Source: an uncultured Christensenella sp.
GTDB lineage: Bacteria > Bacillota > Clostridia > Christensenellales > UBA3700
Length of the DNA: 64,000 nucleotides
Assembly (NCBI GenBank): GCA_949290515.1
Contig: CASERZ010000002.1
Location: 1 to 64,000 of the forward strand
Direction of reading: 5' to 3'
In this document: positions 12,029 to 47,001 of the stretch, piece after piece
Numbering within the stretch: the first letter of the stretch is position 1
How the letters are laid out: every line of letters starts with the position of its first letter
The notes under the pieces: generated by a model
Seen by the model: the letters and a program-made list of their open reading frames with translations, nothing else
What the model was told of the DNA's origin: nothing
The model's database searches: none
Position numbers and translations under genes: made by a program

Positions 12029-12029
12029 A

Positions 12030-13715: not shown

Positions 13716-13767
13716 AATTACTCCTTTTTTGAACCTGTGTAATTCAAAACGCTGTTAATACTCTATT

Positions 13768-15060: not shown

Positions 15061-15123
15061 AAGTGTATTATTTTATTTACATAAAATTTTCGACTGTATA
15101 TTAGCCGAATTAAGGAGTTAAAA

Positions 15124-16194: not shown

Positions 16195-16227
16195 TTTTCA
16201 CTCTCGCATCTTCTTAAAGGAACAATT

Positions 16228-17358: not shown

Positions 17359-17432
17359 TACCAACCTATACGCTTATAAAGATTTAATTAAAATTTTGAA
17401 AAGCTAAAAATTCAAAAATGAATCAAAAATTA

Positions 17433-17466
17433 AAAAGCCGTTGAAAACTCAACGGCTTTTAGTTTT
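17433..17466 (+). terminator. serC-serA terminator
   Basis: AAAAGCCGTTGA and TCAACGGCTTTT form a 12-bp perfect stem with loop AAAC, followed by AGTTTTTT. Confidence 0.85.
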
Positions 17467-17508
17467 TTAAATTGTCTTATACTAATTAGCACATACCGCA
17501 CTTTAATC

Positions 17509-18384
17509 TTAATTATTTTTATCCCTGACGTTATCTCCGTCCTTATCTTTGCCGTCCTCAGTCAAATCCTCGTCTATTATCTCGTAATCTATGCGAACGC
17601 CTTCTTTTCCGTTCTTCCCCTCGTTTTCTTCACCGTAAAGCTGCTTTTTGAAATTGATGAAAATATAAAGCCCCATATTGACGAATACCAACAGCGAAAG
17701 AGCAAAAGGAAGTATACTCATAGCCAGCGCAAAACCTTGCGCTTTCAATATTACACCGCCTGCAAAAGTAATCAAAAGACATACGCCGCTCAGCGTTCCT
17801 GATATACGCAACAGCGTATATTTGTTGATTTTCTTGATAAAGTACAATACCAGATATGTTGACAAATAAGCTATATACACGACAGGCAAAACGTAAACGG
17901 TCATATACGAAAGGTCTTGCCCTACTTTACTCGATACCGTTACTATGACAGAATAAAACAGCATAATCCCCGTCATTATCAAAAGATATCTGCCTATTAC
18001 AGACGGTATGGATTTTTTATTCTTTATCGCAACCGCTATCTTCGCCGCGCTAAATCCTAAAGCCATTAGAATTACGGGATAACAACTCCAGCAATAATCG
18101 CTTACAAACAAGTCTATTACACTCAACAGCACCGCAATATTCGCAAGCACAGTCAATGCGATTATCCAAGGATTGTGTTTTTTTATAGTTGTTTTTATAG
18201 CATCTTTGACGGTCTCTTTGGCAGCACGCGCGATATCGTCTACAATTTGTTCCGCCGCCGAATTTATATCGTCGTTGTCGATTATTTGCGACTGACTGTT
18301 ATCTTCGACGTAACGGTAACCGCAGTGAGGACAAATATCCTCCCTGTCGTCAAACCATTCATTGCAATTAGGACACAATCTCAT
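17509..18384 (-). CDS. Zinc-ribbon membrane protein, function unknown
   Basis: 291-aa protein beginning with a zinc ribbon: C4PNC7 and C18PHC21. An amphipathic/charged linker (~25-68) precedes about six membrane helices (~72-92, 100-118, 130-150, 160-182, 195-215, 222-245), and an acidic cytoplasmic tail closes the protein. Many Bacillota encode such 'zinc-ribbon domain-containing' membrane proteins of unknown role; I do not recognise a specific family. AGGAA precedes the ATG by 6 bases. It is monocistronic or follows the MMPL gene (175-base gap). Confidence 0.75.
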   Translation of the reverse strand: MRLCPNCNEWFDDREDICPHCGYRYVEDNSQSQIIDNDDINSAAEQIVDDIARAAKETVKDAIKTTIKKHNPWIIALTVLANIAVLLSVIDLFVSDYCWSCYPVILMALGFSAAKIAVAIKNKKSIPSVIGRYLLIMTGIMLFYSVIVTVSSKVGQDLSYMTVYVLPVVYIAYLSTYLVLYFIKKINKYTLLRISGTLSGVCLLITFAGGVILKAQGFALAMSILPFALSLLVFVNMGLYIFINFKKQLYGEENEGKNGKEGVRIDYEIIDEDLTEDGKDKDGDNVRDKNN

Positions 18385-18559
18385 ATTTTTATTTCCTTAA
18401 AATTCTAATACGGTCTTATTTTTCTTAGCTGAACCTGCCGTCTGCAATAATTATCTCTGTTGACTGAAAGCGACTTCTATTTTATGTCCACTATGTCAAA
18501 TCTGTGTTCGTTTTATATTAAGCTGCAGGTTCCATCAAGTATGTTTGTAAGGATATATT

Positions 18560-21049
18560 TCATTCCTTGTGCAGTTTGTCGTGGATATCCTTTTTTGTCT
18601 GGCGTACTCTTTCGTTTATCGCACGCGTTGCCTTGCGGTAATTCTCCCTCAGGTATTGCCTGATTGCCTTTGCTTCTCTTTTTCCGCTGGGAGTCAGATT
18701 TGCCACTCTTCCCGTAAAGAGTATCATTACGCTAGGCAATACGAAGAATACGAGTATACCGCTTATGATACTTCCCCTCGCGATAAGCATTACGATTTCC
18801 TGCACTATCAGGTTGGTAGATACAAAGTATACCGACAGACAACAGCCCGCCATAATCGCTACCGATGTCAGCACGGACAGCGCACTTTCGTTGAGTGCCC
18901 TGAAAGCCGCCTCTCTTGCCGACGATTCTTGCGCATACTTCTTATACTTGACCGCAAAGAGTATTGCGTAGTCGACAGTCGCTCCCAGCTGTATGGAAGA
19001 TATTATTATATAACCTATAAAGTTCATCGCGCTTCCCGTGATTACGCTCAGCGACAAATTGACGAATATACCGAATTCTATTACGAGAATTATAAGTGCG
19101 GATATCTTGAAAGACTTCATCGTACACAACAGTATCACGAATATTATAGCCACAGATATCAGCGCGATTACCAAAAAGTCCGTAGGCGTAATTTCTTTCA
19201 AATCGAGAGCCGCCTGCGTCATACCCGTTACGTAACGTTCCTCGCCTTTAAAATTCTTATCCAAAGACGCATAAATATTTTGCATAGTTGCGGCGGTTTC
19301 GGCACTCTCGGCATCTCCCTCTACCATTACGAAATACAATGCGTGATTGTCTCCCACGATATTCTTGAGTGCTTTGGCATCGTCTGGCAGTTGCGACGAT
19401 ATCAAAGGATTGCTCATCATAGAACACAGTAATTCGGCAAGCGAATAGTTTTCCTCGGGTATTATGGAGTATAAGCCCAACACGCCTATTATATTGTCGT
19501 TTTCGTCGGCTTTTACGTCGGCTATAAACTGCAAATTCTTGTTGCGAAGTATATTATCCTTGATATTCGCTTGTTGCTCGCTGTTGTCTGCACGGGATAC
19601 GGGCAAAGCTATTATTATCGAATTTGACATAGAGTCGACAATCTGCTCTATCTTGGTAGGATTTTCCTTTTCCTGACTGAAATCCACGTAACTCAGCTTT
19701 ACGAAAGACTGAATTATTATCGACGGAATAATAAGCACAAAAAGAAGTACAGCAAATATTCTTCTTTTCTTTATGGAAAAACTCGCTACCGGCGTAAGCT
19801 TGGGTACAATTACCGCGTGAGTGGTCTTAGCCTGCAATTTTCTGGTGTAAAGAAGAAGACAAGGCAGCAACAGAATAATAGTCACCAGCGAAAGAAATAC
19901 GCCCTTAGCCAGCACAAGTCCCAAATCTTGTCCTATTCCGAAACGCATAAACAGCAATGCTATAAATCCGCCTACCGTAGTCAATGACGAAGCCGTTATC
20001 GTCGAAAAAGTCTTGGGTATCGCGCGTCGCATTGCCTGCTCGTCACTCAGCGTATGCTGTTTTTCTTCCTTAAAAGCGTGTATGAGGAATATCGCATAGT
20101 CCATCGAAAGTCCTATCTGCAGTATCGACGAAGCGGCAAACGTAACCACCGAAACCGACGGGAAAATTAAGTTGGTACCCATATTGAGAAGCACCGCTAC
20201 TCCCAACGTAATCATAAGTATGAAAGGCTCCACGAGGTTATCCGTAGTGAGCATAAGAATTATAAACATTACCAGTATGGCAACGATTACGTATTTCCAC
20301 ACTTCGTTTATAGTACTGTGATATAAATCGTAGATTATCTTTGTGCTTCCGCCTATTGCGTAATCGTAATCGGCAAAAACTTTGTCAATCTCTTTGAGCG
20401 CGTCCATTGCTTCGTCGGACGATGACGGCACTCCCAGCTGTACGATTACTACGTAATTCGCCTTGGCGTCACTCTCTATTGCGTCGGATATACTCATACC
20501 GTTTTGAGGGAAAAAGAGGTTTTTGACGTCGTCCTGCTCGAGCATACCGTCTACCATAGCTGACAAATCAACGTCCTTGATACACTTTAATTCGTTGCCT
20601 TCGCTATCTGTCTTGCCGCTGTCGAGCGAATAGCCGTAAGGATTTATCAGCCCCTCTATTACGCGCCCCAGACCCGTAGAGGAATTATATTCTCCGATAA
20701 CAGAATTGATATCGAAGTTTTTCATCTCGTACAACGACCCTAGCCACATTACTCCGCCGTCGTTGACGCCTTTTATTTGAGTTACCTGCTCAACCTTATC
20801 TTTGAGTACAGAATACTCTATACCGCTGACGCCTATAAGCGCGTCACCGTCCATACCGTACGTCGACTTGATATACTCAAGTCCCGTCTTAGTCTTCATA
20901 TCGTCGGGAAGATAAGAAAAAATATCCGAATTGACGTTGACGAAAGCTATCGCTACCACGGACAAAACCGCAAGTACCGCTATTATACACACAAGCAAAA
21001 TCTTGTGCCTGACTATGAATTGAGACAACCTGTCGAGAGCTTTTTTCAT
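18560..21049 (-). CDS. MMPL/RND family transporter
   Basis: Approximately 829-aa inner-membrane transporter of the MMPL (RND superfamily) type. It has an N-terminal helix, a large extracytoplasmic domain (~30-200), five to six helices with the LSMDYAIFL motif in TM4, a second external domain (~445-620), and a second helix bundle with the matching QLGATVDYAILFAVKYKKY. The repeated (S/T)xDYAIxL motif holds the proton-relay Asp. Related proteins export lipids or hydrophobic compounds; substrate unknown. The frame can start at a GTG four codons upstream (21061); I prefer the ATG, with GGGTG 9 bases before it. No partner regulator is adjacent. Confidence 0.88.
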   Translation of the reverse strand: MKKALDRLSQFIVRHKILLVCIIAVLAVLSVVAIAFVNVNSDIFSYLPDDMKTKTGLEYIKSTYGMDGDALIGVSGIEYSVLKDKVEQVTQIKGVNDGGVMWLGSLYEMKNFDINSVIGEYNSSTGLGRVIEGLINPYGYSLDSGKTDSEGNELKCIKDVDLSAMVDGMLEQDDVKNLFFPQNGMSISDAIESDAKANYVVIVQLGVPSSSDEAMDALKEIDKVFADYDYAIGGSTKIIYDLYHSTINEVWKYVIVAILVMFIILMLTTDNLVEPFILMITLGVAVLLNMGTNLIFPSVSVVTFAASSILQIGLSMDYAIFLIHAFKEEKQHTLSDEQAMRRAIPKTFSTITASSLTTVGGFIALLFMRFGIGQDLGLVLAKGVFLSLVTIILLLPCLLLYTRKLQAKTTHAVIVPKLTPVASFSIKKRRIFAVLLFVLIIPSIIIQSFVKLSYVDFSQEKENPTKIEQIVDSMSNSIIIALPVSRADNSEQQANIKDNILRNKNLQFIADVKADENDNIIGVLGLYSIIPEENYSLAELLCSMMSNPLISSQLPDDAKALKNIVGDNHALYFVMVEGDAESAETAATMQNIYASLDKNFKGEERYVTGMTQAALDLKEITPTDFLVIALISVAIIFVILLCTMKSFKISALIILVIEFGIFVNLSLSVITGSAMNFIGYIIISSIQLGATVDYAILFAVKYKKYAQESSAREAAFRALNESALSVLTSVAIMAGCCLSVYFVSTNLIVQEIVMLIARGSIISGILVFFVLPSVMILFTGRVANLTPSGKREAKAIRQYLRENYRKATRAINERVRQTKKDIHDKLHKE

Positions 21050-34761: not shown

Positions 34762-34825
34762 ATTCTATACTATGCACCTCATTGTCGTAATTTGAACGAT
34801 TTTGCCATTTTGTAAAAAAATCATT

Positions 34826-34862
34826 GAAAAAACCGCTCCCCCGACAAGTCGGGAAAGCGGTC
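34826..34862 (-). terminator. Terminator of the phage-like structural operon
   Basis: ACCGCT..CCCGA (34832-) pairs with TCGGG..AGCGGT (to 34861) around a CAAG loop, and on the minus strand ends GGTTTTTTC. It lies 16 bases after the last holin gene. Confidence 0.85.
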
Positions 34863-34876
34863 TTAGTCAAATAATA

Positions 34877-35206
34877 TCAAAGCGACGTATCGCAATCGCT
34901 CTTACTCTCTGCGTCTTGTCCGTCGCCGCCGTCCTCGCAAGACGGTTTCTGCTCACCGTCCGCATTATCCTGCGCGGTCGGCTGAGTTTCCTGCACAGCC
35001 TCTCCGTCTTCTTCCGCAGTCTGACTTACAACGGTTTTTGCAGAGTTCTTTTTAAGTATTCCCGTCACTGCAAGCAAGCTCAGAAACGCCATAGTTATTT
35101 CGTTGACGTAAGGCACGTCTATCTTGATGCTTATCGTCTGCAACAGTACCATTACGGCACTTGCGACGGATACCCAAAAATCGTAACTTTTTAATTTTTC
35201 TTTCAT
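34877..35206 (-). CDS. Phage holin, phi LC3-like
   Basis: 109-aa protein. MKEKLKSYDFWVSVASAVMVLLQ, a short link, then NEITMAFLSLLAVTGIL gives two membrane helices, as in the phi LC3-type holins of Bacillota phages. The C-terminal half (~55-109) is an acidic Gln/Asp/Glu-rich tail unusual for the family. Start at 35206: ATG overlaps the stop of the upstream BhlA-like gene (ATGA), so the two are coupled; the open frame upstream of it is the neighbour's shadow. Last gene of the operon. No endolysin gene follows. Confidence 0.75.
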   Translation of the reverse strand: MKEKLKSYDFWVSVASAVMVLLQTISIKIDVPYVNEITMAFLSLLAVTGILKKNSAKTVVSQTAEEDGEAVQETQPTAQDNADGEQKPSCEDGGDGQDAESKSDCDTSL

Positions 35207-35448
35207 ACGCTCTCCTTTTTGAGGGTACGTTTGCCCCTGTCGAGCACCGCCCTCATTTCCTCGTGTATTCTGTCGATGCTTTTGTTCATAGCGTTCATAT
35301 ACCCGAGGTTCTGCGACAGCTCGGCGATAGTCTTCTGATACTTCTGTTCTCTCGCTCTGCTGTCCTTGAGTTCGAATATCAACAAAAAACAAAACAACAA
35401 CGCCCATATCCCGTCGTCTATCGCAAGGTTGACTATCTTATCCCACAT
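35203..35448 (-). CDS. BhlA/UviB-like holin
   Basis: 81-aa protein with one N-terminal membrane helix (DDGIWALLFCFLLIFEL) followed by a charged coiled-coil segment, SRAREQKYQKTIAELSQNLG, the BhlA/UviB pattern. This family has holin-like, membrane-permeabilising activity in Bacillus phages. It starts one base after the coiled-coil gene ends and overlaps the next holin by 4 bp. Two different holins in tandem often act as holin/antiholin. Confidence 0.75.
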   Translation of the reverse strand: MWDKIVNLAIDDGIWALLFCFLLIFELKDSRAREQKYQKTIAELSQNLGYMNAMNKSIDRIHEEMRAVLDRGKRTLKKESV

Positions 35449-35449
35449 T

Positions 35450-36445
35450 TCAGCCCGCCTTGTTCTGCAGAGAAGCTACGAGGCGCGTATAGTAGTATCC
35501 GAGATACTTTTGCAAATCGGTATTGCCTTCCACGAGCTTCAAAGCTACATCCTTAGGGATATCCTTGTAATAGTCGTATGCAAGCTGATATCGCGATTCG
35601 TAGTTTTCCGCTTTCTCTCCCGCGTAGCCAATCTGTTGTTCGAGTTTTTCTATTTCGAGTTGGTCCTTTGCCCTTTGGGCAATCTGTTTTTCGATGGCAA
35701 GCTGTCTGTCTTCGAGGTATTGCGCCTCCTTGACTTTGAGATTGTCGTTGTATTTGTTGATATCGTCTATCTGCTTTTGTCTGTCAGCCAGAAGCGTATC
35801 TATTTCTTTCTGAAGCTTCTGCGCATAGTTTATGTTGAGCTCGTTGAGCGCGGCTTCTTTCTGACTGTTGAGTTTTTCTATATCGGCATCGTAGGACGCA
35901 AGCTTATTTTCGAGATTTGCGCCTATTGCGCCGAGTTCCTCGTTTTTGGTCTGCTCTGCACGTGCGCTCTGCGAATCTCCTATGGACGAACGCAAGAGCC
36001 CTTTTTCAACAAGAGAGTTGCGCATCTGTTTTTCAAGCTCGGCATACTCCCTCTCCAGCTCTTCGGACTCGAGTTTGCTTTCGTTTGCCGCTTTGTCTTT
36101 ATCGGTTTCTATCTGACCTATCTTGCCGTCGTAATCCGCGCTGACCGACTGAATATCGCTGCCCAGCAATTCGTCGTACTTCTTTTGAGTTTTGTCTTTG
36201 ATAGTCTTCTCGTCATCGCCCGTATACTCTCTGTATTCGAATTCTATCTTTTCGGGCAACAAGTCCTCGATATCCTCGTACAAATCTTCGTTGCTGTGCT
36301 CGGCTTTATACTCTTCGTCAATCTGCTTGAGCTGTTCGTTGAGCTTGTTTTGAGACTCTTCGTAAGGAGAAAGGTCGATTTCCTTATCTTCCTCTTTACC
36401 GAAAAAGTCCTTAATTTTGTTTACTATTTCGTTAAACCAGCCCAT
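35450..36445 (-). CDS. Phage coiled-coil structural protein (unknown)
   Basis: 331-aa, highly charged protein. It opens MGWFNEIVNKIKDFFGKEEDKE, an amphipathic helix, and continues as almost unbroken heptad-rich coiled coil (~25-280) with many Glu, Lys and Gln; only the end (~285-331, YKDIPKDVALKLVEGNTDLQKYLGYYYTRLV) looks globular. No family recognised. Its position after the tail-accessory genes and before the holins fits an ejection/internal virion protein or tail needle. GGAG precedes the ATG by 7 bases. Confidence 0.65.
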   Translation of the reverse strand: MGWFNEIVNKIKDFFGKEEDKEIDLSPYEESQNKLNEQLKQIDEEYKAEHSNEDLYEDIEDLLPEKIEFEYREYTGDDEKTIKDKTQKKYDELLGSDIQSVSADYDGKIGQIETDKDKAANESKLESEELEREYAELEKQMRNSLVEKGLLRSSIGDSQSARAEQTKNEELGAIGANLENKLASYDADIEKLNSQKEAALNELNINYAQKLQKEIDTLLADRQKQIDDINKYNDNLKVKEAQYLEDRQLAIEKQIAQRAKDQLEIEKLEQQIGYAGEKAENYESRYQLAYDYYKDIPKDVALKLVEGNTDLQKYLGYYYTRLVASLQNKAG

Positions 36446-36566
36446 TTTTATTCTCCTTTTGGTTTTTTGTAGAGTTGCGAACGGCTGAGAGATAGAGGTG
36501 CGTTTTGTATTTGGTAATATCGCGCGTCAATCTTGTCAGCCGCTTGCTTTTCGTATATATCTTCAT
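36432..36566 (-). CDS. Small basic peptide, translationally coupled (44 aa)
   Basis: A 44-codon frame starts with ATG at 36566 that overlaps the TGA of the previous gene (ATGA) and ends 14 bases inside the coiled-coil gene. It begins MKIYTKSKRLTRLTRDITKY and is rich in Lys, Arg and Thr with no hydrophobic helix. It closes what would otherwise be the only gap in this part of the operon. The coupling and tight fit are the evidence; there is no homology I can see. Confidence 0.5.
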   Translation of the reverse strand: MKIYTKSKRLTRLTRDITKYKTHLYLSAVRNSTKNQKENKNGLV

Positions 36567-36946
36567 AGCGAAAGTATGCTGCTGAAGGACACGTCTCCCG
36601 TCAGTCTTACTCTCGCCGACGCGACGTTGGGCGAAGTAAAAAACTCCAGTGTATGGTATCCTCTTTCCGCCTCAATGTCCTCAAGCGTAATTACTCCTTT
36701 GCGCACTTGAAGTTCGACGCCGTCCAGCAAAACTCTGCACTGCACTTCCCCCGACAAAGAGTAGTCGGGCATAGCGATAACTTCGCATTCCGTCTTTCCG
36801 CCCGACGTAAAGAATCTTACCGCGAGTTCACCCGACGCGCCGTTTTGCTGCATAACGTAGTAATACGTGTTTTTAGTATTGAGCAAATGGTTCTGAAGGT
36901 TTTCGTTGACGTCCTCGACCATAAACTCTATTCTCTTCAAATTCAT
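36563..36946 (-). CDS. Phage-cassette hypothetical protein (127 aa)
   Basis: 127-aa soluble protein, mostly predicted beta strands (ELAVRFFTSGGKTECEVIAMPDYSLSGEVQCRVLLDG, YHTLEFFTSPNVASARVRLTG). No family recognised; the beta-rich pattern would fit a small tail or decoration protein. It starts 8 bases after the propeller-like gene ends and its stop overlaps the small basic peptide start. Confidence 0.65.
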   Translation of the reverse strand: MNLKRIEFMVEDVNENLQNHLLNTKNTYYYVMQQNGASGELAVRFFTSGGKTECEVIAMPDYSLSGEVQCRVLLDGVELQVRKGVITLEDIEAERGYHTLEFFTSPNVASARVRLTGDVSFSSILSL

Positions 36947-36954
36947 ACTCCCTC

Positions 36955-38388
36955 CTAAGAGATAAAGTCCACCGTAAATTTAGGGGGACGGATATCTTCG
37001 CTTACGTTGTCGCTCCGTATGTAAAATACGAAGTTTTGCGCCTTTATGTACAGGTGTATTTTGTTTTCCGACGGTGAAAGCACGTACTCGTTTCTCTCAT
37101 CGTTTGCGATAATGCCGAGCGTATACTGACAGGGCGTCGAATACTCTACGCTTCTGAGCACTTTGACCTGAGCGGGCGCGCCGAAATCTATCTCGGGCGT
37201 CTGCCAGTATTTAAGCAAAGATTTGCCGAGATACAATCCGCTGTCGTCGAGCTGAACGATTGCGTCGCAATCGTCGCTAAGACCTATGATACGGTTGAAG
37301 TCACTCGTATTGAGCGCAAGCAGTCGCGAAAAGCTGATGCCTCTCATAATATTTACGCTCTTGTCCGTAAGGTCAAAAAGCAAAAGCACGTTGTTGTCGG
37401 CGTCTCTCGTAAATACGCCGTAATCGGCCTTGTCGGCATTTGTGAAAGAGAGTACGTATTTATGGTGAAGATAACAAGCGTACACGTCGTCGAATCCTCT
37501 TAAGATGAGGTCGTTGGCTTTGATTGAATATCTTGTGACGTCATAGCCGTCAAACAGGTATACGCCGTCCTCGCTCGCGAAGGCTATGTATTCTCCGCAG
37601 TCGGTAACCGTAGGCGCGTAAATTCTACCGCACGAAGTGTAGACCTTTTTCATTGAAAACTGATTTTGGTCGGCAAACGCTGTCAGGCGGTAAATTCCGT
37701 AGTCGCAGAATATGTACAGATAGTTGCTGAAACTTTTGAGTACTCTCACCTCTCCCAATGTGCCGTCGAAGCCGATATAACCGCCCTCGTCTATGGACAC
37801 GTTCCAGTTGAAAGGGTCGAAGTTATCGCTGAACCACAGGCTGTTGCGTATTCCTTTCGCTATCGCGTAAATTCTCTCGTAATGCACGCACAGACCTTCT
37901 ATCTGTCCTTGGTACTCCACGTCGAGAAGCTGACCGTTTTTAAAGACTTTAATGCCGTTGTCTCCCGAGAGTATGAGCAAATCCTCGTCGCCGTAGAGAT
38001 ATCCCGTACCGCTCGTAAAGAATCCTTCGCAGTCTATATGGTTCCACTTATCGTCCCCTACAAGCGCGTAATCCACTCCGTTTTCGTATGTCAATACGAG
38101 AGTGCTTACGAGTTTTCCGTCGGCTTGCGTCTTGGTGCAAAATAGACGTTTGTCCTTTGCTCTAAAATCCTCAGAGAGCGCGGGCGCGCCTTTGCCGTTG
38201 ACGTCCAGTTCGTTGATTCCGTAGGGATTGACGAGTCTGCCGTTTTTAAATCGGTAATTGTACACCGTATCCACGTAATCGCACGGCAAATCGGCAGAAG
38301 TTTTGGTTTCGTCGTAGCCCTTAAACCCCGAAAGAGCTACGGTTTTGCGCTTAGGTTTTGCGAGCGCATAGTCCTTGTCGTAAAACAT
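36955..38388 (-). CDS. Propeller-like tail protein (P22 gp10/T7 gp12-like by position)
   Basis: 477-aa protein made of repeated short beta blades of the kind GYLYGDEDLLILSGDNGIKVFKNG, NYLYIFCDYGIYRLTAF and EYIAFASEDGVYLFDGYDVTRYSIK, indicating a beta-propeller. In short-tailed phages the adaptor gene is followed by such a nozzle/packaged-DNA stabilisation protein (P22 gp10, T7 gp12). Here it likewise starts one base after the adaptor gene. Assignment is by fold pattern plus gene order, not by sequence identity. N terminus FYDKDYALAKPKRKTVALSGFKGYD is peptide-like. Confidence 0.65.
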   Translation of the reverse strand: MFYDKDYALAKPKRKTVALSGFKGYDETKTSADLPCDYVDTVYNYRFKNGRLVNPYGINELDVNGKGAPALSEDFRAKDKRLFCTKTQADGKLVSTLVLTYENGVDYALVGDDKWNHIDCEGFFTSGTGYLYGDEDLLILSGDNGIKVFKNGQLLDVEYQGQIEGLCVHYERIYAIAKGIRNSLWFSDNFDPFNWNVSIDEGGYIGFDGTLGEVRVLKSFSNYLYIFCDYGIYRLTAFADQNQFSMKKVYTSCGRIYAPTVTDCGEYIAFASEDGVYLFDGYDVTRYSIKANDLILRGFDDVYACYLHHKYVLSFTNADKADYGVFTRDADNNVLLLFDLTDKSVNIMRGISFSRLLALNTSDFNRIIGLSDDCDAIVQLDDSGLYLGKSLLKYWQTPEIDFGAPAQVKVLRSVEYSTPCQYTLGIIANDERNEYVLSPSENKIHLYIKAQNFVFYIRSDNVSEDIRPPKFTVDFIS

Positions 38389-38389
38389 A

Positions 38390-38941
38390 TCACAACCACC
38401 TTCTGGGCTTGACTTTAATCTCGCCCTTTTTTCTCACGGCTGTGCGCATATCCTCTTTGAATCTCGTAGAGTATGCGACAGACTGCTCGTACATACCCTG
38501 TATGAGCGTATACTCCGCGCAAATACCCAAAGCCAGCGTTTTCGCGCTGACCAAAGGACTGACGGGACACTGCTCGTCTATCTCGATATCCACGGGCATA
38601 TACGAGTATTTTACCGACGCATTCTTTATGTTTTCGTTATGCAGGACGCATTCGGTAGGGGTCATTCTGAAGTTACTCGCAATGCCGTCGGCAGCGTTTC
38701 GGACGGAGAGTATTTCCAGCACTCTGTGCAGAAGTTTTTCGTAACTTATTCTGCCTCCCTGCACCTCGACCTGCTCGGTTTCGATGAGCGGAATATAGTC
38801 GGTCGCGATTTCTTTGATTACGAGATTAGCGCACTTGACCAACAATTTAAGTCGCGGGTGCTGAGCCGTCTTGTTGTTAACCGACGCGTCTTCGTCCCCC
38901 AGATAAGTCAACGATATCTGTATAGCTTCTTTTAATTCCAT
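38390..38941 (-). CDS. Head-tail adaptor (P22 gp4/T7 gp11-like)
   Basis: 183-aa helical protein (MELKEAIQISLTYLG..., KLLVKCANLVIKEIATDYIPL, VSAKTLALGICAEYTLIQGMYEQSVAYSTRFKEDMRTAVRKKG). Size, helical N and C termini around a short beta region, and position between capsid and propeller-like genes match the ring adaptor that joins portal to nozzle in podoviruses. GGAG is 6 bases before the ATG. A strong hairpin terminator sits directly upstream, so this may be a second transcriptional segment. Confidence 0.65.
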   Translation of the reverse strand: MELKEAIQISLTYLGDEDASVNNKTAQHPRLKLLVKCANLVIKEIATDYIPLIETEQVEVQGGRISYEKLLHRVLEILSVRNAADGIASNFRMTPTECVLHNENIKNASVKYSYMPVDIEIDEQCPVSPLVSAKTLALGICAEYTLIQGMYEQSVAYSTRFKEDMRTAVRKKGEIKVKPRRWL

Positions 38942-38954
38942 TTTTCTCTCCTTA

Positions 38955-38982
38955 TGATAAAAGGGTGAGTTGCCTCACCCTT
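38955..38982 (-). terminator. Internal terminator/attenuator in the phage operon
   Basis: AAGGGTGAG and CTCACCCTT (38961-38982) form a 9-bp stem with loop TTGC, followed on the minus strand by TTTTATC. It lies 5 bases after the 104-aa gene and just before the adaptor's Shine-Dalgarno, so capsid-side transcripts could stop here. Confidence 0.7.
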
Positions 38983-38986
38983 AAGC

Positions 38987-39301
38987 TCAGAGTTCGATGC
39001 TCTGCATCGTTTTTTCAAACAATGCTTTAGCGTGTTCCTCTTCGAGTTGTTTGTTGTGTTGTTCTATTTGTCTGAGTATCATTTCTCTGTTTTTAATTCC
39101 GCTCTCCAGCGCGTAGTCCACGGCACGTTTGTCAAGAGTCGGATAGGGAAACGTAAGCTGATATGTAGGCTTACATCTTTCGTTGTGCAATTCGTAGCGG
39201 TGCGTATCCCCGTTAAAGTAAATTTTGTAGTTTGCGTCTATACTCTTTATCCGCTCCGCTATCGAGAATAAATCGTTGCGCACTTCAAAAAGTTTTTCCA
39301 T
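38987..39301 (-). CDS. Phage-cassette hypothetical protein (104 aa)
   Basis: 104-aa protein. A beta-rich N half (FEVRNDLFSIAERIKSIDANYKIYFNGDTHRYELHN) is followed by a long charged helix (KNREMILRQIEQHNKQLEEEHAKALFEKTM). Small proteins with an NYKIYFN..RYELH pattern occur after capsid genes in Bacillota phages, but their function is not known to me. ATG follows AGGAG 5 bases away; it is 56 bases after the capsid stop and is followed by a terminator. Confidence 0.65.
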   Translation of the reverse strand: MEKLFEVRNDLFSIAERIKSIDANYKIYFNGDTHRYELHNERCKPTYQLTFPYPTLDKRAVDYALESGIKNREMILRQIEQHNKQLEEEHAKALFEKTMQSIEL

Positions 39302-39357
39302 ACTTACTCCTTAAAATTCCGTCGGGCTCTCATATCCGATACCGGACTTTAGAACAC

Positions 39358-40527
39358 TCAGGCGGTAATACCCGAAAGCTTTGCCTGACCGATAGGCTTG
39401 TCGCAAATCATATCGGCATACTTGACGAGAGTTGCGCTGTAAGTAGCACTGCCCGCTTTCTGTTTGATGACCTTGCCGTTGTCGCCTTCGAGCCATCTCC
39501 AGTCGCAAAGCTGATGCATCTTGAAGTCCTTGCTGTTGAGCAAGTACATAGTACCGTTGTCGACAAATCTGTCTGCGATGAGAGGTATGCCGTTGTAAGA
39601 CAAAGCCTTAAAGCCTCCGTCGAGATTCATATAGTCGATATTGGTACGGGTAAGAGCGAGGTAGTCGAGGTATGCTCTTCTTACGTCGTAGGAGCATACG
39701 ATGAAGTCAATCTGACTGCCCGCAACTTCGTCGATATAGTCGATTGCGCTCTGAATTTTAGCCGAAGAAATCGAGCCTACGCTTTCGTAGTGTTTGGGTT
39801 GCAACCAGCTTCTGCCCTCTCTTGCAAGTCCGTAGAGGTCTTTATCCGAGAAGATTGCGCCGAGACCGGTAAGTTCGTTTTCCTTAGAGCCTTGTACGGT
39901 TAAGGTATCGCCGTCCTGAACGGAAGAAGATACGCTGCCGCTGACGGTTACGACGTTGTTTACTCTGTCGATAGCCGTAATTCTTACGCCCTTGAGGTCG
40001 GAATATACGCTGCCCGAAGACTTGGAAAATACGTCTACGACCATACCTTCCATAAGGTTGTTGACTTTGTCAACCTTGATATTGTTTGCGGAAGAGCCGC
40101 TTTGCTGACACGTAGCGAGAATACCGCTGCCGTCGCCGTAGAGCATTCTGCCGAGGTTGAATTTGGACGCTTTGAGAAGTCCTTCCATCTCCGCATTGAG
40201 CAGGTTGACGAACGCGCCGGTATTGGACTGCGAAGCTCTTATAGCCTTGTCGGACAGCTCAATCGTGCCGTAAAGGTTTTTGAGTTCGAGCTTGAATCTG
40301 TCGTAGTTGTTTGCTGCGGGCGTAGGCAATTCGCCGCTTTCGGTACCTGCGCCGATACCGCCGTTGATGCCGTAGGGAACGAGTTTGATTATTTCTTTAC
40401 CCCATACGTCCGAAGTAGTCTGTTCGATTTTTGCAAGGAGTGGATTGACTCCTATGTTAAGTTGGTCTGCCACCACGTTCAAATAAACGCTTTTGAGTGC
40501 TTTTTCCGCTGTTTCTAACGTTACCAT
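39358..40527 (-). CDS. Phage major capsid protein (HK97-fold type)
   Basis: 389-aa protein with features of HK97-fold capsids: N-terminal arm, ELKNLYGTIELSDKAIRASQSNTGAFVNLLNAEMEGL spine helix, an inserted beta domain (~150-215: GMVVDVFSKSSG, VTVSGSVSSSVQDGDTLTV), and the A-domain SYNGIPLIADRFVDNGTMYLLNSKDFKMHQ. GRMLYGDGSG is a common capsid motif. It starts in the TAATG overlap with the scaffold gene and has AGGAGG 6 bases upstream, the best Shine-Dalgarno of the cassette, as expected for the most abundant virion protein. Confidence 0.85.
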   Translation of the reverse strand: MVTLETAEKALKSVYLNVVADQLNIGVNPLLAKIEQTTSDVWGKEIIKLVPYGINGGIGAGTESGELPTPAANNYDRFKLELKNLYGTIELSDKAIRASQSNTGAFVNLLNAEMEGLLKASKFNLGRMLYGDGSGILATCQQSGSSANNIKVDKVNNLMEGMVVDVFSKSSGSVYSDLKGVRITAIDRVNNVVTVSGSVSSSVQDGDTLTVQGSKENELTGLGAIFSDKDLYGLAREGRSWLQPKHYESVGSISSAKIQSAIDYIDEVAGSQIDFIVCSYDVRRAYLDYLALTRTNIDYMNLDGGFKALSYNGIPLIADRFVDNGTMYLLNSKDFKMHQLCDWRWLEGDNGKVIKQKAGSATYSATLVKYADMICDKPIGQAKLSGITA

Positions 40528-41201
40528 TATATCCTCCTGTTGTTGAGCATAGTTGTAATTACTGCACCCGCCTCTTCTATGCTCTTAGGTCTTGAAGGCG
40601 GTGTGAGTGTGATTTGTCCTCCTGAGGAGATAGCCCTTACGGGCATAGATTTTTGCAGATTGTCGAGATAATCGTCCACGATAGCCTGTCTTACGCTCTC
40701 GTTGGAATAGACGTAGTTTTTGAGAAAACTCTCGTCCGTTGCAAGAGTTTCGGGAGCTGTATACTCTCTGCAAAGCACTCTGAGAAGTGCTTTTTCGAGG
40801 CATTCGTCGTCATAATGCAAGCTTTGGTCTTTTGCTATTTCGTCCCCTATCTGTGCGGCAAACCGCTTAGCTACGGGGTATTGTGCGAAAAACTTTGCGA
40901 CCGTGCTTTTCCAGCCGTCTTTGTCGAATACCGGTTTTTTGTTTTCTTCGGGAGTGTCCGATGTTTTCTCCCCCTCTTTATCGGGTATTTCGGACGTAGT
41001 CTGCGCCGTATTGTCGGTTTGAGTTTGGCTATCCGATTGCTCTGCCGTAGGCTCTTGAACGCCGTCTTGAGGGACGGTATCTTTATCTGCAATATCTTCT
41101 GTATCCTCACGGACAGGTATATTTTTCTCCTCGGGGATTATCTCCTCGGGAGCGGGTCGGGCTTGTTGCTCGTTGATTTTTTTATCTTTGTTCTTTTTCA
41201 T
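40527..41201 (-). CDS. Capsid scaffold-like protein
   Basis: 224-aa acidic, low-complexity protein (Glu/Asp/Gln/Thr-rich residues 1-~95), then a helical C-terminal part (AKFFAQYPVAKRFAAQIGDEIAKDQ). A disordered acidic N terminus, helical C terminus and position between portal and capsid are typical of assembly scaffolds. The AISSGGQITLTPPSRPKSIEEAGAVI tail resembles ends seen in such proteins. It overlaps the portal gene by 20 bp and the capsid start by 1 base. No maturation protease is encoded. Confidence 0.7.
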   Translation of the reverse strand: MKKNKDKKINEQQARPAPEEIIPEEKNIPVREDTEDIADKDTVPQDGVQEPTAEQSDSQTQTDNTAQTTSEIPDKEGEKTSDTPEENKKPVFDKDGWKSTVAKFFAQYPVAKRFAAQIGDEIAKDQSLHYDDECLEKALLRVLCREYTAPETLATDESFLKNYVYSNESVRQAIVDDYLDNLQKSMPVRAISSGGQITLTPPSRPKSIEEAGAVITTMLNNRRI

Positions 41202-43062
41202 TTTGCTCCTCGTATGCCTGCATTCCGCCGTTCATCAGTTTTGCAAGTCTGTGTTGTTTTATATGTTCGTCGAGTGCGGTCTTTGCCTTATCGTCCTTGC
41301 TCTCGAGAAGTGCTTTTATATGCTCCTCGATATGCAAGTCGTGCTCGTCGTATTCGGCTACGGCAAGTTTTGCTTTGCCCGCGTCAAGGTTTTCCTTGAG
41401 CGCTTTTTTGCGGTGAGTTTCGTCGGTATCGCGCGCCGATTCCCAGTTTCCGAATCCCAAAAGCTCGAGAATTTTTACTTTATTGCGCGCAGATACTTCT
41501 CCGTTTTCTCCGTTGAAAATACCCATACGCACGAGTTCGAGCACCATATTTCTTCTGTTTTCGAGAGTGTCGGTAAGTTCGTTTTCGTTGTCGAATACCA
41601 AATCGTCGCTTTTCAAATCGCTCGCGTTAAAATAAGCAAGTTCGACTTCTCCGTTATCTCCGGAAAATCTCTTCATTCGCTTACCGCTGCAAAACTGTTT
41701 GTAAAGTCTGAGCATCTGCTCGCATATACGTTTGACCGCATTGCGCAAAGAGGTAGTCGCTATGTTTAGTCGCGTTTCGTCCTGTTCGACGAGCAAGCCT
41801 ATCGCCTTACCCGACATACTGTTGTAGACGTCCGAGTATTTGCTCAGCTCGCTAACGCCCGACATAGTGGTAAACTCCGAAAGTATTCTCTCTTCTTCGT
41901 ACTGAAAATCCACAGGTACTCTTCCCACCTCGAGAAGTCTGGGGGGAGTCGAGCCCTGACGGTACACAAGCACTTTGCCGGGAGACAGTCCCTCGTCTTC
42001 GAGATTGTCGGTATCTATCGAGCCGTCCTCTACGGTAAGCACGCCCATAGCCAGTCTGTTCATAAACTCGTGTTTTCTGTTTTTGACCGCATTGTAAGCC
42101 CTTTGCAAAGGAATAAGTCTTTCGATAATGCTGGTACCGTAAAAACAGCCTATTTTGTCGAGACAAATCGTCTTTGTAAAAGGATAACCTCTGACGTCGT
42201 TAGTTTCGTTGATATAAGGCAAATCTCCGTAGTAAAGAAGTTGGTCGCCCGCGACGATGACGAGTTCTCCGTCGGGTTTTTCGCTGGTCGGCTTGGTGTA
42301 TCTTTCGATTACTATGCACATATCGTGCGCAACGCTGTCTATCATATTGGGAAGCGAGGCATTGTAGCCCAGTCCTCCGCCAATCTGCGCATTGTCGAGA
42401 GAAAAGACGTTGACGTCCTCTCCTTTAACGTCCGCGCCCCAGAGGTTTTTGACCTCGTCCACGTGATAGGCTTTTGCGTGAATAATGCTTTGACAGTCTT
42501 CGAGTTTATCGGTAGTAAGACAGTCGGGAAAGAGTTCGTAAGGCGGTACGACGCTTATTTCGACGTCACCTTCTTTTACTCTCTTTTTGTTTTTATCCAC
42601 GCCGACAGTTCTGCCCTTATCGGGAGACCAAACGGTCTTAAAAAAGCAGGTACCCGTAACTTCGCTCCACGTAGACGCGGTATTGAGCAGAGTTGCGAGG
42701 TTATTTTCTTCGCACAGAGCCTTGATAATCTGCGTAGACAGTTTTGCCGTCTGCACGTCGCTGTCGTCTCCGCTGAAAGGTCTAACGCTGACGCCGCACT
42801 TGAGGCGGTTGAGTTTGGAAAGTCGGGTTTCGACGATTGCCGCGATATGGTTGTAGACTTCTCTCTCCTGCCAGTAATACTGTTTGCCGTACTGTTCGAT
42901 ATCTCCTACGGGAGAGATTTCGGCATACTGATTGCCGTTGTAGAAGTTCATATTAAGACGCCACTGAAGTTCGAGGGGTTTTCTCTCCTCTCGTCTTTGC
43001 AAAAAGTCTTTTCTGACCTCGCTGACAATCTCCTCTTTGAATTTGTCGTAATTTTTCTTCAT
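41182..43062 (-). CDS. Portal protein (P22-like)
   Basis: 626-aa portal, the size of P22-type portals, forming the ring through which DNA is packaged. Typical blocks are FYNGNQYAEI near the N terminus, EVYNHIAAIVETRLSKLNRLKCGVSVRP, SEVTGTCFFKTVW, PPYELFPDC, LIPLQRAYNAVKNRKHEFMNRLAMGVLTVEDGS and the long stem/crown helix region after SGVSELSKYSDVYNSMSGKAIGLLVEQ. The last ~60 residues are a charged coil. ATG overlaps the stop of the zinc-finger gene (ATGA), with AGGGAGA upstream. Confidence 0.85.
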   Translation of the reverse strand: MKKNYDKFKEEIVSEVRKDFLQRREERKPLELQWRLNMNFYNGNQYAEISPVGDIEQYGKQYYWQEREVYNHIAAIVETRLSKLNRLKCGVSVRPFSGDDSDVQTAKLSTQIIKALCEENNLATLLNTASTWSEVTGTCFFKTVWSPDKGRTVGVDKNKKRVKEGDVEISVVPPYELFPDCLTTDKLEDCQSIIHAKAYHVDEVKNLWGADVKGEDVNVFSLDNAQIGGGLGYNASLPNMIDSVAHDMCIVIERYTKPTSEKPDGELVIVAGDQLLYYGDLPYINETNDVRGYPFTKTICLDKIGCFYGTSIIERLIPLQRAYNAVKNRKHEFMNRLAMGVLTVEDGSIDTDNLEDEGLSPGKVLVYRQGSTPPRLLEVGRVPVDFQYEEERILSEFTTMSGVSELSKYSDVYNSMSGKAIGLLVEQDETRLNIATTSLRNAVKRICEQMLRLYKQFCSGKRMKRFSGDNGEVELAYFNASDLKSDDLVFDNENELTDTLENRRNMVLELVRMGIFNGENGEVSARNKVKILELLGFGNWESARDTDETHRKKALKENLDAGKAKLAVAEYDEHDLHIEEHIKALLESKDDKAKTALDEHIKQHRLAKLMNGGMQAYEEQNEKEQR

Positions 43063-43256
43063 TTTTCATCTCCCTTTTTTACGGGTACGCGTTTATAAAT
43101 CGCGCCTGCCTCTTTGAAAAAAGCTCTCATACACTTATCGCAGAGGTTGAGGTAGCTTCTCTTTTCCGTTTCGTCGGGAACGACGGAATAATGTGCGCGT
43201 TCAGGGCAAGTCCCCATATCGCATTTAAGGTTGGTTGTCTGAATAATTATCTTCAT
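43059..43256 (-). CDS. Small zinc-binding protein of the phage cassette
   Basis: 65-aa protein with two Cys pairs, CDMGTC (12-17) and CDKC (39-42), and a His between (RAHYSVV), indicating one zinc site. Basic C terminus KRVPVKKGDEK. It overlaps the upstream 99-aa gene by 32 bp and the portal start by 4 bp. Function unknown; small zinc proteins next to terminase/portal genes can be HNH remnants or packaging accessories, but no HNH residues are seen. Confidence 0.65.
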   Translation of the reverse strand: MKIIIQTTNLKCDMGTCPERAHYSVVPDETEKRSYLNLCDKCMRAFFKEAGAIYKRVPVKKGDEK

Positions 43257-43524
43257 TTTTCTCTCCTTCAGTAAAATCGTTTAACTGGGCAATAAGCCTC
43301 AGTTTGAGCTGTTGCAATTGACTGTCGCTGAGCGAAGCGAGATTACGGGAGGGGTCGTCGTCCATCTCGGCGTAAACCTTAACCGCGCTCATATCGGGCG
43401 GGAAGTGTTTTGTAGTAATCTTACGTTTGAGAAGTTCGTTGTCGCCCGAGTACTCTTCTGTAATCTCCTGTATCTCATAGCCCGTCGCTTTGCGGAACAC
43501 GGCTCTTTCTATTTCTTCATTCAC
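43225..43524 (-). CDS. Phage-cassette hypothetical protein (99 aa)
   Basis: 99-aa acidic protein (EIERAVFRKATGYEIQEITEEYSGDNELLKRKITTKHFPPDMSAVKVYAEM...). Genes with this pattern follow large terminase genes in many Bacillota phages; the role is unknown. I considered a small terminase, but there is no helix-turn-helix. It starts 12 bases after the terminase stop. Confidence 0.7.
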   Translation of the reverse strand: MNEEIERAVFRKATGYEIQEITEEYSGDNELLKRKITTKHFPPDMSAVKVYAEMDDDPSRNLASLSDSQLQQLKLRLIAQLNDFTEGEKNEDNYSDNQP

Positions 43525-43536
43525 AATATCCTCCCA

Positions 43537-44973
43537 TCAGAGAGATTTGTTTTTTCGCCGCGAAGAAAGCTGTTTGATAAGCTTTTGTTTATCCTTTTGA
43601 ATTACGGTGGGTAGCGGCGCGGGAAGCTTAGCCGCTTTAGGTTTTGCGGCTAGATAATAACGGAGTGCGTCAAGCGCGTGGTCGTCTTTTTTAATAGGTT
43701 TGTCTCCCTTTCCCCACCAGTAAGTTTTCAGCTCGCGTATGAGATTTGTACAACACGAGAAGATTTTGATTTTGTCCGCCGTGAAATAACTTTTGACCTG
43801 AGCGATACCCGAGAAAAGCTGTTTGTCGACGTTGGTATTGACGAGTATGCCTCTATCGTAGAAGAGTTCGGATACGCTTTTAGCCGAAGCGAGAGTATGC
43901 TGGTCGGCAGCACTGTCGATTAGAGCGGTAAGTCTGCCCTTTGCGTCGGTGTGCCAGTTGAGCTTATGAGCTAGTTCCTTAATTTTTTGCGCGTGGTAGT
44001 CTACGTCTTTTCCCGCCATATACCATTCCCCGACCACGTATACGGTGCCGTCGTAGTCCGTCGCAAAAAACAGACAGGCAAGCGGATTGTTAAGACCCGG
44101 GTCGATAGATATACCGTCCTGCCATTCGAAAGGCACGTCAAAAGGTTGGATGACGTGCCTTGATTGTTCGAACTCTTTATAGACCATACCCTCTGCTTCG
44201 CAGAATCTTCCGTAACGTCTTGAAGACAGCGTTTCTTCGTCCAGACACTTTGAAAGGGCTTCGACTTCGGATTTATCCAGAAAGGGATTGTCCGCCCATT
44301 CGATATGTTCGTGCCATACTTCTTTGTCGTCTTTTGAATTGAGATAAATCTCGTCATACACCCACGTTAAGCCTTTGAGAGGCGTCATCGTACCCCAAAT
44401 ATCTCCTACTCGGTCAATAACTCTCATACGGCATTCGTCGTAAATATCCTTAGGCGGCTCTTCGTCAAACCACACGAAGTCCAGCGACGTACCCTGAAAC
44501 TTTTCTCTGCCCTGGTCGCAGCTTTTGAACGAAACCTTTGACAGTCCGCCGAATACGTTGCGGATAAGCACGTAATCTATGATACCGTACTCAGCCGACG
44601 ATTTTTTACCCGAAGACATCACTACGTCGGCAATCCATTCGGGGCGCAGATAACTCATAAACTTGCTTTGCGCGACGTCTCTCTGCACCTCGTAGGACAG
44701 CGAAACAATCCAGCCTGAAACGTCTTTTCTGTTTTGTCTGTAAGGGTGAATACCTCTCGCCCACCATACCGCTTCGACCGCACCGCACTCAGTTTTTCCG
44801 CTTCTGTTACCGCCGAAGACCCAGCGGTTACGGCAGAGGCACTTGTGAAACGCGAGCTGTTTTTCATGTACTTTTTCTCCTGTGTTGTAATGCGACAATT
44901 TGTCGCCGTCAAGCCTTTTTTCCTGTTCTTTTTCAATGGCAAGTATTCTGCCGAGTAATTGCTTTTCCGTCAT
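43537..44973 (-). CDS. terL: Terminase large subunit
   Basis: 478-aa packaging motor. ATPase: Walker A GGNRSGKT (54-61), Walker B VWFDEE (167-172), coupling motif WGTMTP. Nuclease: D291 in SIDPGLNNP, D353 in LIDSAAD, and the DDHALDALRY triad region (430-439) with D430/D431 and D435. All catalytic residues are present. The ATG has no clear Shine-Dalgarno. It is first in the structural operon; no small terminase gene is found upstream, where a plus-strand gene lies instead. Confidence 0.93.
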   Translation of the reverse strand: MTEKQLLGRILAIEKEQEKRLDGDKLSHYNTGEKVHEKQLAFHKCLCRNRWVFGGNRSGKTECGAVEAVWWARGIHPYRQNRKDVSGWIVSLSYEVQRDVAQSKFMSYLRPEWIADVVMSSGKKSSAEYGIIDYVLIRNVFGGLSKVSFKSCDQGREKFQGTSLDFVWFDEEPPKDIYDECRMRVIDRVGDIWGTMTPLKGLTWVYDEIYLNSKDDKEVWHEHIEWADNPFLDKSEVEALSKCLDEETLSSRRYGRFCEAEGMVYKEFEQSRHVIQPFDVPFEWQDGISIDPGLNNPLACLFFATDYDGTVYVVGEWYMAGKDVDYHAQKIKELAHKLNWHTDAKGRLTALIDSAADQHTLASAKSVSELFYDRGILVNTNVDKQLFSGIAQVKSYFTADKIKIFSCCTNLIRELKTYWWGKGDKPIKKDDHALDALRYYLAAKPKAAKLPAPLPTVIQKDKQKLIKQLSSRRKNKSL

Positions 44974-45076: not shown

Positions 45077-45832
45077 ATGAAAAAACTGATACTTGTTACG
45101 CTTCTACTCGTATTTATAATGATACCGTTTACCTTAGGCGGTACGGTACTTGCCGAGGATGAAGGCAAACTCTATTATTATGTTTTCTATGACAATGAGA
45201 TCCCGGTTTTTGCCGACACCGACGGAGGCACCCCGATTTTCTATATACCCGGGACTTACGCATATCAGTTTGATACCGAAGTCGAAGGCAAGGATTTTGT
45301 CAAGATTACCTACAACGGCAAGGAAGGCTATATCGGCAAATCGCATCACAACTCTACCCACGAGGTAAAGCTCGACTGGCAGGGCGAATATTTCTATACA
45401 ATCGAATTCGATATTACCGCAACTGGTAACATAGATATTTATAGCGACAATACTATGACGTCGGCTATACCTTATGCCGCTTCTTCCACCAAAATAAACA
45501 AAGTGTACAGCTATTATAAGGCGAATGACGTTTATTATTTCTATATCAACTATACCTATGCGACCTTACCCGCTATGGACGGCTATATCAAAGTATCCGA
45601 TACTTCCTTAAGCGGTTTTACCTCTGCGTCGGTACCTCAGAATCCCCATTATGTAGAGGAAACCAAACCCGAAACTCCCGATGAAGACAACCCTTCGGGC
45701 GATAATCCCGACGGAATAGTAGAGCCTACCAACAATCTCGAGAGATATATCCTAATAGCGGTGATAGCTGTACTTTGCGTAGTAATCGTTGTGCTTGTAT
45801 TCTTGCCCAACAAAAACCGCAAGTCCAACTAA
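45077..45832 (+). CDS. Secreted/anchored SH3-like protein
   Basis: 251-aa exported protein. Signal peptide residues 1-~26 (KKLILVTLLLVFIMIPFTLGG..VLA). Two SH3-like beta units follow, ~32-90 (...VFADTDGGTPIFYIPGTYAYQF..YNGKEGYIGKS) and ~105-180 (...IDIYSDNTMTSAIPYAASS..). A Pro/Asp/Glu linker (~190-220) and a C-terminal membrane helix (~226-245) with NKNRK anchor end it. Such bacterial SH3-like proteins bind cell wall. It is encoded against the phage operon with its own promoter and terminator, so it may be a host gene flanking the phage or a cargo gene expressed in the lysogen. Confidence 0.75.
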   Translation: MKKLILVTLLLVFIMIPFTLGGTVLAEDEGKLYYYVFYDNEIPVFADTDGGTPIFYIPGTYAYQFDTEVEGKDFVKITYNGKEGYIGKSHHNSTHEVKLDWQGEYFYTIEFDITATGNIDIYSDNTMTSAIPYAASSTKINKVYSYYKANDVYYFYINYTYATLPAMDGYIKVSDTSLSGFTSASVPQNPHYVEETKPETPDEDNPSGDNPDGIVEPTNNLERYILIAVIAVLCVVIVVLVFLPNKNRKSN

Positions 45833-45957: not shown

Positions 45958-46527
45958 TCAATTCTCCGCAAGGCTTTCGCCTACGGCGTTTGTCGCAAGC
46001 ACACCCGCAACCGCGCAGGCAAGCTTTTTGATTTTGCCGTTGACGGTATTTTCCTGTCGGGCGCAATTCTTTTCGAGTTGCCAAGAGTGTGTTTCGTTTA
46101 GTCTTACAAACAATGCGTCCCTTCCGTATCGCTTGTCCAGCCACTCCTCGTCATACCCTTTTGACTTGCATACCGCAGAAAAAGACTTGAGGGCAAAGGC
46201 ATAACGCCTGAATACGGTCCTCAGACAAATTCCCAGATTTTTGGCGATGTCTTCAAACGAAGTTTTTTTCAAATACTTAAGTTCGAGGACTTCCCTGTAC
46301 TTGGGTTTGAGGTCTTGAAGAGTGTTGTCCACTATCACTTTAGCGTTTATCAAAGCCTCCTTGCGTTTGTTGTTGTCGATAATTTTTTGCATCAGGTCTA
46401 GCGTATTGCCCGCATAAGAAAAACTGCCGAGTGCAAGCGACATTGTGTAAGAATCTATCGACTTGACTATCTTGGGCAGTATTCTGTAGGACGCGAGCAA
46501 ACTTTTGGACCACGTCTCTTGATTCAT
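45958..46527 (-). CDS. Sigma-70 region 4-like regulator (phage late-type)
   Basis: 189-aa protein. A helical N-terminal part (ETWSKSLLASYRILPKIVKSIDSYTMSLALGSF) is followed by YREVLELKYLKKTSFEDIAKNLGICLRTVFRRYAFALKSFS (~75-118), a sigma region 4-type helix-turn-helix. The C terminus (~130-189) is variable, including a hydrophobic Ala-rich stretch. Similar proteins sit just before terminase genes in Bacillota phages as late regulators (ArpU-like/DUF1492-like). Of two adjacent ATGs I chose the second (46527), 7 bases after GGAGG. It is separated from terL by a terminator and a divergent gene. Confidence 0.75.
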   Translation of the reverse strand: MNQETWSKSLLASYRILPKIVKSIDSYTMSLALGSFSYAGNTLDLMQKIIDNNKRKEALINAKVIVDNTLQDLKPKYREVLELKYLKKTSFEDIAKNLGICLRTVFRRYAFALKSFSAVCKSKGYDEEWLDKRYGRDALFVRLNETHSWQLEKNCARQENTVNGKIKKLACAVAGVLATNAVGESLAEN

Positions 46528-47001
46528 CATATCACCTCCGTTTACACTCAAAGTATATTACAGGCGGTTAGACAAAAGCAATCTTTTGTGACAAATTTAT
46601 GAACATTTGTTTGCATTTTTTCGTAAAATTTTCAAAAAAGCCCTCTCTTGGGAAAAATTTTGGACAATTGATGTAAAATTGATAAAATTCAGTTATTGTT
46701 TTAGAAAATATATTTCTCTTGTATTTGCTTTATCTTTGCCTATCCCAAAAACAAACAATATCATCATCCTCTCCCCGCTTCTTTGAATACAACTTGTTTA
46801 TACCCCTTTACACTTATCTGCAAAGTTATCGACAAAGCTCATTTTCTCTACGCTCATTCTCCCCGCGCTAACTCGGCCCGCTTTACCTACGGACTATTCG
46901 GATAAAACTACAATATAAAAATTCCGATAAATAAAAATAATTTCTCACGCTTAAAAGTCAGACTCCTATATGCAGACGCTTGTATGCCAGAATAGATTTT
47001 T
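46528..47001. other. AT-rich spacer upstream of the phage regulator
   Basis: No ORF above background and no RNA gene seen. The GGAGGTGAT ribosome site of the regulator is at its left end. The reverse-strand TAATATACTTTG near 46545-46557 may hold its -10, but no matching -35 is convincing. No attachment-site repeat pairs with the murC side by eye. Confidence 0.4.

Follow-up and report, generated by a model that had tools for sequence, protein, structure and literature searches.

Very few gene transfer agents (GTAs) are known outside Alphaproteobacteria. RcGTA and its relatives are vertically inherited, multi-locus and siphovirus-like with a long tail, are switched on by an activator with a sigma-like DNA-binding region (GafA), and have a TerS that lacks the DNA-binding domain (Sherlock et al., PMC6854486), a truncation that has been proposed to define GTA packaging. 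The first podovirus-like GTA, FpGTA I/II of Faecalibacterium, was reported only in 2026 and in one genus, in another clostridial order (Borodovich et al., PMC12946183). FpGTA is near-ubiquitous in its genus and occupies dispersed loci, with a main operon of 10.5 kb encoding a TerS without an obvious DNA-binding domain, TerL, portal, scaffold and capsid, and a second operon with endolysin, fibre and receptor-binding genes; particles and packaged DNA of about 9 kb were demonstrated. The same study counted three GTA-like packaging events in Christensenellaceae (genera given as HMG11616 or HGM11616, and QANA01) without naming a gene cluster. PBSX of Bacillus subtilis is likewise domesticated, Gram-positive and packages host DNA, but acts as a tailocin and does not inject its DNA (as described in PMC12946183). 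P22/Sf6/VP1-type podoviruses, by contrast, are self-packaging phages.

Here we describe a cluster of short-tailed-phage genes in an uncultured Christensenella sp. (assembly GCA_949290515.1, contig CASERZ010000002.1), found in a stretch of 64,000 nt hereafter called the window. The cluster has been inherited like an ordinary chromosomal gene through much of a large order of gut Clostridia, probably Christensenellales (the order name being inferred from record titles and GTDB usage), and we consider that it is most likely a host-domesticated, podovirus-type GTA, although particles, packaging and transfer have not been shown in this lineage.

Results

Gene content of the cluster

Thirteen tightly packed, co-directional genes run on the minus strand from 44973 to 34877, with murC downstream and parC/gyrB-type topoisomerase genes upstream. 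The GC content of the region (44–48%) is close to that of the flanks (37–47%). The first gene encodes the packaging ATPase/nuclease TerL (43537–44973; PF03237 and PF17289, Terminase_6N/6C, 7e-13 and 7e-9), whose ATPase motifs GGNRSGKT, VWFDEEPP and GTMTP and nuclease acidic residues are invariant or nearly so in 29 sequences. It is followed by a 99-aa protein (43225–43524) discussed below and by a 65-aa protein of unknown function with paired CxxC-type, zinc-ribbon-like motifs (43059–43256), which is conserved in 41 of 48 fully covered loci; a Cys-motif protein also sits between TerL and portal in a distant phage contig (L235). The portal protein (41182–43062) matched P22_portal (1.9e-25) and phrog_156 (8e-36) and is the only portal of this family in the genome. 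A scaffold-like protein (40527–41201), assigned by position and composition only because no family hit was obtained, is conserved between portal and capsid in 46 of 48 loci. The major capsid protein (39358–40527) matched phrog_14242 (1.9e-58), and a 104-aa protein with no firm family (38987–39301), possibly a head-completion part, is conserved in 43 of 48 loci. A search of solved structures by sequence gave nothing useful for the capsid or the 99-aa protein.

The next two products had only weak or no sequence family hits and were modelled with AlphaFold2 from family alignments. The model of the first (38390–38941; pLDDT 87) matched podovirus adaptors in the PDB (KHP30, crAss001, SU10, Pa223) and, more weakly, the RcGTA neck. 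The model of the second (36955–38388; pLDDT 87, pTM 0.85) gave Pa223 and VP1 tail chains as top matches, and also Sf6 gp8 and the P22 and T7 nozzles, with E-values down to 1.9e-20. These predicted folds support the head-to-tail adaptor and tail nozzle that the first-pass annotation had only guessed, so that the DNA path from portal through adaptor to nozzle is complete, and the suggestion in that annotation that the particle might be tail-less is wrong.

Downstream of the nozzle gene lies a gene for a 127-aa protein (36563–36946) in a slot that varies from 0 to 3 kb in relatives and encodes proteins of about 310–380 and 580–630 aa in other families. This gene is a candidate for the tail tip and, given that the slot holds longer tail-like proteins elsewhere, a tip or receptor-binding function cannot be called missing as first annotated, although no separate fibre gene was identified in this genome, where fibre families were not searched. 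The operon continues with a DUF7934 coiled-coil protein, presumed to be a virion or internal/tail protein (35450–36445; PF25588, 6e-44; 46 of 48 loci), a BhlA-family holin (35203–35448; PF10960, 3.7e-13) and a second holin-like membrane protein (34877–35206; phrog_297, 2.5e-8). It is closed by an intrinsic terminator (34824–34868, −), a 16-pair hairpin followed by a U run (−26.5 kcal/mol, z −6.1). No lysin was found in the cluster and no Amidase_2 anywhere in the genome, this being the only lysin family searched genome-wide. The first-pass annotation was thus right about the uninterrupted operon, its terminator, the intact TerL and the host-like base composition.

Two further genes belong to the core of the cluster. 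A sigma-70 region-4-like transcriptional regulator, presumed to be an activator (45958–46527, −), matched Sigma70_r4_2 (8e-10) and phrog_36 (2e-13) and was found with the cluster in 38 of 48 fully covered loci. A divergent SH3-like protein (45077–45832, +; weak SH3_3 match), with a signal peptide, a C-terminal membrane anchor and a fast-evolving middle, keeps its position in 42 of 48 loci; in the related genome G008 it is 75% identical, while the other 14 genes are 94–100% identical. The same order of about 14 genes recurs in many families, which is far beyond chance.

A small terminase reduced to its C-terminal part

The small terminase, first annotated as missing, is present but truncated. 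The 99-aa protein encoded after TerL matched the small-terminase family phrog_309 (1.4e-6 to 2e-6), and 33 of 34 homologues did so; in the window protein the aligned part covers only residues about 194–239 of 319, and all homologues in the alignment are short, so the N-terminal part is absent. A related clostridial prophage has a 256-aa TerS upstream of TerL with a full Terminase_2 domain; a profile comparison of the stub with one prophage TerS was uninformative. As RcGTA TerS likewise lacks the DNA-binding domain (PMC6854486), the stub carries the published signature of a GTA TerS. That this makes packaging sequence-independent is an inference.

Vertical inheritance and purifying selection

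The capsid gene was found in 237 of 396 genomes sampled across the order (72 of 142 genera; 202 of 330 high-quality genomes), usually in one copy and almost always with an open frame, including genomes of 0.8–1.0 Mb. TerL is present in every genome of the window's genus except two, of which one (G014) has the capsid gene and the other is 69% complete. Nevertheless, about 40% of the sampled genomes lack the capsid gene; another genus of the same family (g6) and some other families lack it, and a few copies are decaying (e.g., in genomes G047 and G194). A tree of TerL, capsid and portal for 29 genomes shared 15 of 26 splits with rpoB (label shuffles: mean 0.3, maximum 4), recovered 15 of 16 well-supported rpoB splits and showed no well-supported conflict (FastTree supports), with a Mantel r of 0.65 (0 of 5000 permutations) and a cassette divergence only 1.3 times that of rpoB. 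Host neighbours also recur, with gyrB/parC in the genus and in two relatives at 60–62% TerL identity (L057 and L061), and ileS/rluD in others. Between the window and its closest relative, dN/dS was 0.026 for TerL, 0.047 for portal, 0.069 for adaptor, 0.086 for nozzle and 0.14 for capsid, compared with 0.029 for parC. Intact frames in much of an order and dN/dS far below 1 refute, for the order, the view that the locus is a decaying prophage remnant, despite the absence of an integrase, a repressor and a recognized lysin and the few decayed copies; we regard that explanation as very improbable.

Separation of the cluster in a reduced-genome family

In one family with genomes of 0.8–1.4 Mb (f28), many members carry regulator-SH3-TerL at one place and TerS-to-holins at another, 38 kb apart in G104, 53 kb in G139, 44 kb in G084, 40 kb in G153, 23 kb in G347, 47 kb in G177 and 103 kb in G165, whereas other members (G229, G304, G122, G257) keep them close. 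TerL has therefore not been lost from these genomes, and the idea of an empty capsid was rejected. A phage or satellite that packages itself could not live with such an arrangement, whereas a host-serving particle can.

Several other results bear on whether the locus might be an active or satellite phage integrating at this site, as its full set of virion genes and its presence in many IMG/VR contigs might suggest. No integrase or replication gene was seen by ORF inspection in the cluster or its surroundings, nor in the 20 kb regions inspected in relatives, apart from a tyrosine recombinase that lies beside the operon in two distant relatives and near it in genome G018; its homologues are absent from G006, G008 and G032, which keep the cassette, and vary from 0 to 4 per genome. 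Among the best hits in the INPHARED phage set, nothing exceeded about 29% identity to the capsid or about 30% to TerL; the nearest phages by sequence, Arthrobacter phage Jasmine and Microbacterium phage Shocker, are about 24–29% identical. Of 48 IMG/VR loci, 43 matched the capsid at ≥45% and carry the same cassette, with regulator and SH3 gene wherever enough upstream sequence exists, that is, they are chromosomal loci called viral, while the five remaining, distant contigs (29–39%, including L235) look like true podoviruses. Taken together with the congruent tree and single copy, these data leave the phage or satellite explanation very unlikely, and the satellite proposed as one candidate in the first-pass annotation is refuted.

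A LexA-like box upstream of the regulator

A GAACAAATGTTC-like palindrome lies upstream of the regulator. It was perfect in 20 of 51 and within one mismatch in 31 of 51 regulator upstream regions, against 1.7% and 8.4% of same-length windows from the same loci. Similar boxes, one mismatch from the palindrome, precede lexA in 17 of 21 genomes of the order (15% in controls). As related sequences are not independent, these counts are descriptive. Genomes of family f28 without a detectable lexA (G104, G139) also lack the box, but a small table (13/5/1/4) gave only p = 0.056 and the genomes are related. In the window the box (46601–46612, −; AAACAAATGTTC) has one mismatch to GAACN4GTTC and lies upstream of the putative −35 region, so SOS control is a hypothesis.

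Discussion

In this study, we found that a complete podovirus-type structural operon, together with a regulator and an SH3-like gene, has been retained through much of a clostridial order, with TerL, portal, capsid, adaptor and nozzle under purifying selection. Of the candidates raised by the first-pass annotation (a domesticated particle such as a GTA or tail-less capsid, a satellite, or a conserved remnant), a domesticated GTA-like particle is strongly favoured. The criteria on which that annotation would have fallen were examined and did not apply: the genome has no second portal of this type, the locus is present in close relatives of good completeness, and pseudogenized relatives are exceptions.

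We propose that DNA damage or a related stress relieves LexA-type repression of the regulator (inferred from the box) and that the regulator switches on the TerL operon (also inferred). Scaffold and capsid protein would then build a small prohead on the portal, as is established for these families, and TerL, with a TerS that has lost its recognition part, would load whatever host DNA is available until the head is full, as inferred from the truncation and by analogy with RcGTA. Adaptor and nozzle would close the head and form a short tail, the two holins would open the membrane, and host wall hydrolases or an unidentified lysin would release particles whose variable tip protein binds kin cells, the delivered DNA being recombined in. 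We hold this explanation with fairly good confidence, although all steps from expression to transfer are inferred.

It is possible, although unlikely, that the particle packages host DNA but acts as a PBSX-like killing or lysis device selected for competition rather than gene transfer, an alternative also raised for FpGTA (PMC12946183). The two holins, the fast-evolving tip slot and the surface protein would fit antagonism between kin and non-kin. However, the packaging motor and the complete DNA conduit have been kept under strong purifying selection for an order's lifetime, a tail-only or DNA-free killer would not need TerL or TerS, and no toxin or lysin was recognized in the cluster. Still less likely, in our view, is a GTA-derived DNA-release system providing repair templates, biofilm DNA or shared nucleotides, in which delivery is secondary. 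The LexA-like box suggests a DNA-damage link, and the Caulobacter GTA promotes survival and DNA repair (PMC9632790), but adaptor, nozzle and tip slot are conserved here. ComEC was kept in 27 of 28 genomes tested, which is compatible with uptake by recipients but is weak evidence because the gene is widespread anyway.

FpGTA is the nearest functional precedent, being podovirus-like, clostridial and built on an operon of about 10 kb with a TerS lacking an obvious DNA-binding domain. The present system spans an order, carries holins and a regulator with the structural operon, and has no lysin found, only Amidase_2 having been searched genome-wide. RcGTA resembles it in vertical inheritance, multiple loci, TerS truncation and a sigma-like activator region, but differs in its siphovirus-like long tail, its capsid and tail proteins, its activator family and its host phylum. 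P22/Sf6/VP1-type podoviruses and the phages nearest by sequence share portal, capsid, adaptor and nozzle families or folds and the TerL-portal-capsid order, but they package themselves. PBSX differs in acting as a tailocin, whereas the system described here is podovirus-type and order-wide.

It is about as likely as not that the cluster represents one of the most widely conserved GTA families outside Alphaproteobacteria: a podovirus-type, SOS-linked GTA that is ancestral to much of a clostridial order and retained even in 0.8 Mb genomes, whose homologues also occur as dispersed loci in a further clostridial family outside the order (f76), and which explains the unassigned GTA-like DNA packaging seen in gut Christensenellaceae.

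In summary, our analysis provides a concrete candidate gene cluster for the packaged Christensenellaceae DNA already observed in human faecal virus-like particles, another instance of the TerS truncation proposed to define GTA packaging, and a possible link to the SOS response. It also warns that these chromosomal loci are called viral by current tools, dozens of such contigs being present in IMG/VR. A vertically inherited particle cluster, usually in single copy, across an order of gut bacteria and kept even in extremely reduced genomes, would make virus-like gene exchange a basic trait of these mostly uncultured organisms.

Several relatives carry insertions in or beside the cassette. In loci L199, L222, L229 and L231, restriction-modification or other defence-like islands are inserted directly downstream of the capsid gene: an insertion hotspot inside the cassette. 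In locus L113 (4295-6571) of genome G229, a 758-aa secreted-looking protein is inserted between TerL and the TerS stub, while in genome G122 the capsid gene is duplicated in tandem (locus L278, 8035-10379). In locus L228 (240-7187), phage tail-like genes with an amidase and holin lie directly upstream of a truncated TerL of the cassette, indicating prophage integration next to or into it. A family of solo tyrosine recombinases, with 0-4 per genome, was also found (genome G000, contig positions C1:164561 and C3:96004), and its members sometimes sit directly next to the cassette (L044, 19469-20401; L059, 18955-19869).

In genome G737 (loci L266, 9011-11050, and L341, 7075-8498), an isolated scaffold and capsid pair lies beside a pyruvate formate-lyase-like gene, with a fragmentary TerL elsewhere, which is possibly a degenerate or minimal version. 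In genome G593 (locus L268, about 4058-19019), a compact cluster of about 15 kb between host genes contains TerS, TerL, lysin, holin, portal, capsid, and a nozzle-like gene, but no replication genes were recognised, making it another candidate GTA or defective prophage. Genus g196 of family f76, which belongs to the same class but lies outside the order, carries a scaffold-capsid-104aa-adaptor-nozzle mini-operon beside serC (MCP loci L271, L273, and L274), and a related TerL (about 630 bits) at another locus together with a 65-aa-like gene and small terminase-like genes (TerL loci L338, L339, and L340). This arrangement looks like a second dispersed GTA.

The SH3 surface protein (window 45077-45832; locus L039, about 9148-9900) is only 75% identical between two near-identical genomes, although the other cassette genes are 94-100% identical. 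Its ends are conserved and its middle has diverged, a pattern pointing to allele exchange or diversifying selection, like a receptor or self-recognition protein.
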